From: Planctomycetaceae bacterium
Lineage (GTDB): Bacteria > Planctomycetota > Planctomycetia > Planctomycetales > Planctomycetaceae
NCBI GenBank assembly: GCA_009691905.1
Contig: SIAF01000004.1
Coordinates: 1-40,828, forward strand
Length of the DNA stretch: 40,828 nt
Reading direction: 5' to 3'
The position numbers and the translations under genes were made by a program. Numbering within the stretch: the stretch's first letter is position 1; each line of letters begins with the position of its first letter. This document shows positions 11,065 to 24,825 of this stretch, in pieces. Under the pieces are notes generated by a model that made no database searches, was not told where the DNA came from, and was given only the letters and a program-made list of their open reading frames with translations.

Positions 11065-11131
11065 ATGCGGTTCGTTCGGCCAGCGGAGTCGCCCGCGACG
11101 AGTAGTGGCCCCCATTACGAAAACCGCCTCC

Positions 11132-11434
11132 ATGCCCACCCCCCGCAAGCCCACCGCCGGATTCTGGATCGTTGTGGCGGCAGTCGTTTTGCCGGTGCTG
11201 TATGTACTGAGTTTCGGGCCGGCATGCTGGATCAGCAGCCGAGCGCAGCCTTCCGGGGAAATCGTGTCGGTGATCTATAGGCCGCTGATTGAGGCGATGA
11301 CCGACGATTCTGATTGGATTCGAACGCCCGATTGGATCAGACCGGCTCTCTGGAAGTACGCATCCCTCAAAACAAAGTATTCAGTCGCGGTCACGACTTC
11401 AGAGCCTCGACGACTTCGCTTTGATCTGTGGTAA
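11132..11434 (+). CDS. Small membrane-anchored hypothetical protein
   Basis: MPTPRKPTAGFWIVVAAVVLPVLYVLSFGPACWISSR..., one TM helix; planctomycete-like short protein, 100 aa. Confidence 0.55.
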   Translation: MPTPRKPTAGFWIVVAAVVLPVLYVLSFGPACWISSRAQPSGEIVSVIYRPLIEAMTDDSDWIRTPDWIRPALWKYASLKTKYSVAVTTSEPRRLRFDLW

Positions 11435-11652
11435 GCGATCCCGCACTGACGTCGCCGTCTTAGACATTACGCCGCCCGCATGCACGCCTCCGCTAGGGGA
11501 ATGGGGCGCTAGGGGATTTGGGGGCTGCTTGCCCGGCCCCCCCCGGCACCCTTCCCCCCTTTTGACCGACTTTTTTTTTGATTGTCTTTTCCAGATTTGC
11601 GCACAGCGTGTCTCGCAGCCGCGCCGATTCTGGTAAAATGGTGATTGCAGCG

Positions 11653-12540
11653 CGGCCTGTGGCCGCAACCAAAAGAGGGGAACCAAGAATAGCACGAATG
11701 AGACGAATAGGCCATTTTCCGCCTGTTTACGATTCGTGTTATTCGACGTATTCGTGGTTGAAATCCTTCTCCGGGTCTCTGGTGAAACAGGCAAAACTGA
11801 CATGCGGTCAGCGTCTGGAAATCTTCTCGCCATGAAAAGAATGGTTTGCACCGCAGAGGGCGCAGAGGCTCCCCGGAGACTTTTCTCTGCTAACTCTTGT
11901 GAATCCCTTTTTTTGGTTGCGGCCGCAGGTCACGCTGGGTCCTCTGCGGGCCGTCTTTCGTCGTCGCCGCGGAGGATGTCCTTGAGGTCGATTCTGCCCG
12001 CTGATTCCGCTTCCAGATTCTCCGGGGCAGGAGAATTCGAAAATTCACACAAACGTGAAACTTATGAAATTTTGAAATCACGAATCCTGCAAAACGCCGG
12101 GAAATGCCCGCACAATTGGGATTTTCGCACGGCGGCCGCCGTAAGGAATCGGCTCGACTTTCTCAGCCGACGTGTTAATTCCGCTCCATCCTCTGCGCAG
12201 CAAACGTTCAGAATTTTGTCACGGCGCGCAAATTCGCGCCGTCCGGTAGACGATTGGTTAGCCGCGAATGGACGCGGATGAACGCAAATGGATTCAGATT
12301 GAACGAACTCTCAACGCCCGCTTCCTCATATTTGCGTGAATTCGCGTCCATTCGCGGCTTCACTGGCTTCGATCGGGTGAAGAAGTCGACCACGAATTGC
12401 ACGAATAACACGAATAAAGGACTGAAGAGAAATCAAAGACCGATGAGAATCCCCGACGCCCGCCCGGCTCGCGAGCCTGTTCGTATTCGCGTCATTCGTT
12501 GGATTCGTAGTTCCCTTTTTGGTTGCGGCCGAAGGCTGCG
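11653..12540. repeat. Non-coding island of long imperfect inverted repeats
   Basis: Inverted-repeat elements at 11661-11765, 11837-11950, 12261-12358 and 12389-12530, plus hairpins at 12129-12142 and 12221-12242. Shared module CCC-T(5-7)-GGTTGCGGCC at 11905-11924 and 12513-12530, inverted at 11661-11680. Confidence 0.85.
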
Positions 12541-12557
12541 CCGGGAGATCCGCTGAA

Positions 12558-24588: not shown

Positions 24589-24697
24589 TCCTCGCTATTT
24601 TCAGCTTGAGATTGCGCCTCGTGAGTCTGAAACTGAGTGCGCTGTTTGTCAAGCCGCCGTTCGTCGCTGCGGATTCGGGGTTGTATTGAACGAAAGA

Positions 24698-24779
24698 GCC
24701 ACGGACAAACACGGATGAAACACGGACACGGGGGGTGGCTTGTTCCGTATCCGTGTTTCATCCGTGTCCATCCGTGGCT
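24698..24779. repeat. Long inverted repeat (CCGTGTTTCATCCGTGTCCATCCGTGGCT family)
   Basis: Left arm AGCCACGGACAAACACGGATGAAACACGGA, right arm near-complement; located between two codirectional genes. Confidence 0.9.
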
Positions 24780-24825
24780 GGACTTGAATTCCTCGGGGGT
24801 CGTCCGGGAAAGACGAACCGCGGCA

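Follow-up and report, generated by a model that had tools for sequence, protein, structure and literature searches.

Probable gene-less derivatives of GxxExxY elements in an intergenic island of a planctomycete genome

The 23S rRNA of Coxiella contains an intervening sequence (IVS) of ~430 bp with terminal repeats of ~28 bp and an S23p ORF, the origin of which is described as unclear (PMC4990558). In Geobacter metallireducens, paired tandem units of classes 1-3 were described in 2009 as predicted binding sites of a global regulator (PMC2700814). Two further systems bear comparison, the MITEs of classical insertion sequences and the REPIN/RAYT pairs, in which intergenic palindromes go with a single gene family acting in trans. 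GxxExxY proteins are widely annotated without a known role and the name is rare in the open-access literature, an earlier mention being an annotation adjoining a reverse transcriptase. No link between GxxExxY and repeats of the kind described below was found in the main texts of that open-access literature.

Judged from their sequences, GxxExxY elements are a widespread and little-noticed form of mobile DNA, comprising one small putative nuclease gene between inverted repeats of iterated 7-mers. They resemble the 23S rRNA IVS in size, terminal repeats, possession of one small ORF, sense orientation within a transcribed unit and patchy occurrence (PMC4990558). However, the IVS ORF encodes a four-helix bundle (S23p/IVP) rather than a PD-(D/E)XK nuclease and the IVS unit code is different, whilst GxxExxY elements lie between protein genes and have abundant gene-less derivatives. 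The Geobacter sites are also inverted pairs at variable distance, each of three tandem TCTCCGTS[Y] units (the reverse complement of a CACGGAGA unit), but are interpreted as regulator sites, and the passages of PMC2700814 that describe them connect the pairs neither with GxxExxY nor with mobility. With MITEs, the elements share terminal inverted repeats, gene-less derivatives and graded internal deletions; in contrast to these, there is no DDE or other transposase, the repeats are of iterated units and no consistent target duplication is seen. RAYTs are Y1 tyrosine nucleases, whereas GxxExxY elements encode a predicted PD-(D/E)XK protein, have longer, iterated arms and carry their gene framed by those arms.

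The DNA analysed here (the window, 40,828 nt) is the whole of contig C275 from a 6.36-Mb genome in 490 contigs, whose PSCyt/PSD1 and planctomycete cytochrome domains mark it as being of the planctomycete type. An island at 11.65-12.55 kb, flanked by an FGE-sulfatase gene region and a bPH2 pair, contains two strong and two decayed palindromes and has the TTTTTGGTTGCGGCC module three times; all belong to families with copies across the genome. Unlike a 23S rRNA IVS, it is intergenic between protein genes and has no IVP ORF. Coverage by repeats from the same genome begins sharply at ~11645 and ends at ~12545, with one older dispersed repeat beginning before the island, already at 11491. The original prediction of long inverted repeats with a common module is borne out at the positions claimed, and the elements at 11.65 and 12.39 kb are indeed copies of each other in opposite orientation. 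Allowing up to two mismatches, the window has exactly three occurrences of the TTTTTGGTTGCGGCC module (11661-11675 on the minus strand, 11910-11924 and 12516-12530 on the plus strand; 0.13 expected).

Elements 1 (11650-11785) and 2 (12374-12541) each comprise an A-end, CACGAAT arms of 9-bp periodicity on either side of a loop, and a B-end, the A-end being laid out as GGCGCGGCC-TTC-GGCCGC-AACCAAA-GRGGGA and the B-end as GTGACCGAAGAAG..TCA. The A-end of element 1 (11650-11680, plus strand) is a small hairpin, GCGGCCTGTGGCCGC, followed by AACCAAAAGAGGGG, and is a recurrent outer end with dozens of copies in the same genome. Its left arm, AACCAAGAATAGCACGAATGAGACGAAT (11681-11709, plus), consists of iterated 7-mer units with the 9-bp period that follow the code CRCRRAK; the right arm (11731-11759, minus; fold z -4.9) is the inverse of the left, and is followed by the B-end (11760-11785, plus) and by a linker to ~11849 that is common to other copies. 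Next comes a CGCAGAG palindrome (11850-11950, plus), which contains the module as predicted, since a second A-end copy (11905-11937) interrupts its right arm; a copy of this region on contig C42 is 83% identical across 11743-12077. A palindrome of CGCGAAT/CGCGGAT/CGCAAAT units follows, with its left arm at 12260-12289 (plus), of the type found beside the intact GxxExxY gene of contig C28, and its right arm at 12330-12359 (minus; fold z -6.8). Element 2, the inverted copy of element 1, has its B-end at 12374-12388 (minus), a left arm of the CRCRRAK code, ACCACGAATTGCACGAATAACACGAAT, at 12389-12416 (plus), a partly decayed right arm at 12482-12513 (minus) and an A-end matching the module, CCCTTTTTGGTTGCGGCCGAAGGCTGCGCC, at 12514-12541 (minus).

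The older dispersed repeat, 'X', has embedded palindromic elements. Its left part (11491-11640, plus) matches contigs C366 and C59 of the same genome at 82-85% and its right part (11912-12232, plus) has matches, mostly of 83-88%, on C366, C213, C59, C111 and C42. Other copies of repeat X in this genome house different palindromes at the same internal place, which explains the mix-and-match look of the island. Elsewhere in the window, a further near-perfect palindrome of the CRCRRAK code, with CACGGA units, occupies another intergenic gap (24697-24780, plus; DNA fold z -9.0). The stretch at 11121-11241, just before the island, is repeated on contigs C156, C326 and C442 of the same genome (71-81%) and in the relatives G156 and G149.

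The arms are tandem units of the form C-R-C-R-R-A-K (CACGAAT, CGCAGAG, CGCGAAT, CGCAAAT) separated by linkers of 1-3 nt. This code was read from GxxExxY genes elsewhere, also fitted the island by eye, and was then scanned over the whole window, giving seven runs within the 0.9 kb of the island, where 0.02 were expected, and only two elsewhere. Inverted arms with at least two CRCRRAK units and linkers of 1-3 nt, the features by which we recognise an element, are therefore present in the island. An average periodicity at lag 9 was uninformative as a test for arms because the linkers vary. Genome-wide, the CGAAT arm has 133 matches at up to one mismatch against none for the reversed control, and the TTTTTGGTTGCGGCC module has 86 against 23 in its control, so the copies in the island are far from being the only ones.

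A series of deletions within the same genome connects the palindromes to GxxExxY genes. Three PF13366 genes are present, two of them within ~100 bp of island-type repeats, and in the third, on C28, an arm of the 12260 type directly follows the gene. Only two GxxExxY genes are full length (C28 and C230), against more than 100 arm matches. On C108 the start of a GxxExxY gene stands behind a left arm identical in type to that of the gene-less copies and the gene is cut short; the palindromes on C17 and C233 retain a decayed GxxExxY remnant of 21-30 residues (scores of 64 and 80 against shuffled maxima of 42 and 46), and on C253 only the region around the GxxExxY start is retained. The arms of the island match those framing GxxExxY on C28, C108, C17 and C233. 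Copies in the window lack the GxxExxY ORF and are hence derivatives rather than full members; like MITEs, they are gene-less, have terminal inverted repeats, are present in many copies and are related by internal deletion to a gene-bearing element. ORFs within the island matched no Pfam family. The suggestion that no coding gene explains these sequences is consequently true of the island but does not extend to the family, whose full-length members carry the gene for the putative GxxExxY nuclease. The truncated gene on C108 (L089, near 1690) and the repeat on C42 (L274, near its right end) both adjoin GAGACTGTAGCAAAGATACCGGGTTTGATCGTGACTCA, which is probably the end of an insertion sequence.

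A full element measures ~430-490 bp and consists of an outer end, a terminal inverted repeat, one ORF and the inverse arm. The terminal inverted repeat (~25-35 bp) starts with TTCACC or AACC and usually continues as three CRCRRAK units spaced by linkers of 1-3 nt, and the ORF, of ~120-150 codons, encodes GxxExxY, apparently a minimal PD-(D/E)XK nuclease of the Cas4/RecB-like family TIGR04256/PF13366 (PDDEXK_3). Among 76 GxxExxY loci, drawn from archaea and many phyla of bacteria, oriented CRCRRAK runs were found upstream in 58, downstream in 60 and on both sides in 50, falling to near zero at 1 kb from the genes; about a quarter of the genes have no recognisable run on a given side. The complementarity of the two flanks averaged 19.8 against 11.6 for cross-locus pairs (permutation p 0/20000), and scores of at least 20 were reached by 37/76 loci against 6% of those pairs and 0/66 for flanks 1 kb away. 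This sample was seeded with the GLLES subgroup and so is biased to one subfamily; in a less biased sample, 29 further loci from the phylum, the flanks were likewise complementary, far above both the cross-locus and the far-flank controls. Similarity of GxxExxY proteins is correlated with that of their arms (Mantel test, r 0.29, p 0.001), a result that carries no weight because common descent or taxonomy is not separated from co-evolution. A search of phages with GxxExxY gave no match. Plasmids gave eight matching records, each below 60% identity and therefore offering no natural empty sites.

In 19 diverse GxxExxY proteins, D64, K76, Q88 and Y92 are invariant and E74 is present in at least 90%. 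Together these form the D...ExK and QxxxY motifs of RecB/Cas4-like PD-(D/E)XK proteins, from which nuclease activity is predicted. A confident structure model (pLDDT 96.5) shows weak resemblance to Cas4 (the best match), MGME1 and lambda exonuclease, with a best E of 0.006; a sequence search of the PDB returned no match.

Across 149 genomes of the phylum, triple CRCRRAK runs number 1571 against 18 for a reversed-pattern control. Genomes with at least four runs contain GxxExxY in 35/42 cases against 35/107 for the remainder (p 1.8e-8), an association to which the arms belonging to GxxExxY genes contribute and which is drawn from related genomes. At 20 runs or more, 18 genomes have GxxExxY and two do not. 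Runs far exceed genes in many genomes, for instance 82 runs to three genes in G110 and 411 to two in G044. One genome, G051 (assembly 84% complete), has 490 CGAAT matches and 102 triple runs with no GxxExxY or IVP match; either a different gene is involved or the gene-bearing form has been lost.

The joined flanks of eight GxxExxY elements from G120 and G086 were searched for in 16 genomes of their family, the operon names being a reading of the flanking sequence. The livG-livF gap holds a GxxExxY element in G120 and G179 and gene-less palindromes in G177 and G086; in G022, G178, G136, G104 and G181 it is empty. At oleB-oleC, G120 and G178 have the element and G179 has a palindrome without the gene, built of other units, while the gap is empty in G176 and G104. 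Presence and absence alternate in the same way at the sufD-sufS, sucA-sucB, fabD-fabG and serA sites, some with gene-less copies. On sequence comparison, such full, gene-less and empty states of the same gaps in different species show the elements to be mobile, in a family of the phylum other than that of the window, for whose own site relatives are too distant. No consistent target-site duplication was found (44 pairs; overlap 3.48 against 3.22, p 0.04). At the suf site of G180 (L358), scored as empty, TAGGGACCACGGGTGAATCACG looks like one arm left behind by the element that occupies this site in G120 and G179. Operon gaps of this kind attract repeats of several families, since those at livG-livF and suf (L361, L378) contain, in G177 and G047, palindromes without a gene whose code (CAATGAACAATG units) is unrelated.

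The island is thus probably an intergenic landing zone for gene-less, MITE-like derivatives of GxxExxY elements, which the nuclease would move according to the following scheme. Elements would be expressed from the host transcript. The nuclease would recognise the iterated units, which the two arms present as inverted copies, perhaps folded into a hairpin or cruciform, and would cut DNA at the element ends, at the target or at both. Repair would then copy the element, with or without its gene, into a new gap, where no target duplication would be evident. The mix-and-match arrangement in the window would have arisen as elements inserted into the older repeat X and like arms and A-ends subsequently recombined. 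Movement is judged from occupancy across species; the assignment of the GxxExxY nuclease as the mover is our inference. As to the modular non-coding mobile element originally proposed, the dispersed copies, the nested and recombined modules and the sites found empty or occupied elsewhere in the phylum all agree with it.

The main rival to nuclease-driven mobility is a benefit of resident GxxExxY copies to the host. Here the units would be useful operon genes, the arms would be RNA-processing hairpins for RNase III (as in the 23S rRNA IVS) or autoregulatory sites, and mobility would be rare and due to other enzymes. Such an account fits the sense orientation within operons, since GxxExxY is co-directional with the upstream gene at 42/47 scorable loci (42:5) and with the downstream gene at 37/45, that is, almost always transcribed in the sense of the host operon. 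It also fits the 428-nt Coxiella IVS, which has a 28-bp terminal repeat around the S23p ORF and is cut by RNase III (PMC4990558). Furthermore, two orthologous resident pairs have dN/dS of 0.05 and 0.11 (synonymous sites being saturated in a third), and their arms, at fixed sites, differ at few positions, several being A/G changes at R positions. Resident genes are under purifying selection; selection of this strength on long-resident copies is unusual for a purely selfish element and leaves room for host benefit. However, gene-less copies are numerous, the same operon gaps vary in occupancy, and covariation between linkers is weak (match between arms 0.48 against 0.37 shuffled, p 0.04, 15 elements, with no clear signal of compensatory change). 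We consider this alternative unlikely.

Considerably less probable still is that the paired tandem units are sites for a global, IHF/HU-like DNA-binding regulator. PMC2700814 proposes this for the G. metallireducens pairs, three tandem units on opposite strands, and the units here are conserved as sequence with variable linkers, but in many phyla the pairs enclose a putative nuclease gene, their presence at operon gaps changes between species, and gene-less copies retain GxxExxY remnants.

The original prediction also raised a structured-RNA family. Folding well beyond shuffled sequences was confirmed at 12257-12361 (z -6.8) and 11650-11772 (z -4.9), but 11845-11955 (z -0.7) and 12386-12530 (z +1.0) fold no better than shuffles and are decayed or interrupted hairpins. 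The island palindromes have no match in Rfam, and the linkers hardly covary while the iterated units are conserved as sequence; given the presence and absence at operon gaps as well, a regulatory RNA family without mobility is highly improbable. Repeats of REP/BIME or REPIN type moved by a RAYT, also palindromic, intergenic and of many copies, are just as hard to credit, and the RAYT/IS200-like partner was rejected, as none of the 12 Y1_Tnp loci in the genome has unit runs in its flanks (up to 1.5 kb) and the partner gene is GxxExxY.

If mobile as proposed, the GxxExxY unit would give these proteins a context and a testable function, and would explain families of intergenic palindromes in many genomes. 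A mobile element with a nuclease alone would, if true, be a new source of sequence-recognising nucleases. The parallel with the IVS extends to chromosomal IVP genes of the phylum (L090, L287-L315), 16/30 of which are framed by inverted repeats of iterated units against 0.2% of cross-locus pairs; their arm codes differ from locus to locus and match between both arms (e.g. GAGGGGC, AGTGGTT, GTTCGGT). It is nearly as likely as not that GxxExxY elements are a class of bacterial and archaeal mobile DNA that spreads without a transposase, by means of a single minimal Cas4/RecB-like nuclease recognising iterated-unit inverted repeats, and that chromosomal IVP elements form a second class alongside it, from which the origin of the 23S rRNA IVS would also be explained. 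The parallel opens a way to the long-standing question of the origin and movement of such intervening sequences. At two further loci (L094 on C271 and L095 on C210), a reverse transcriptase accompanies a weak IVP/Avd-like match and an FGE-sulfatase-like gene in which template and variable repeats are similar; on reading their sequences, these loci look like diversity-generating retroelements.
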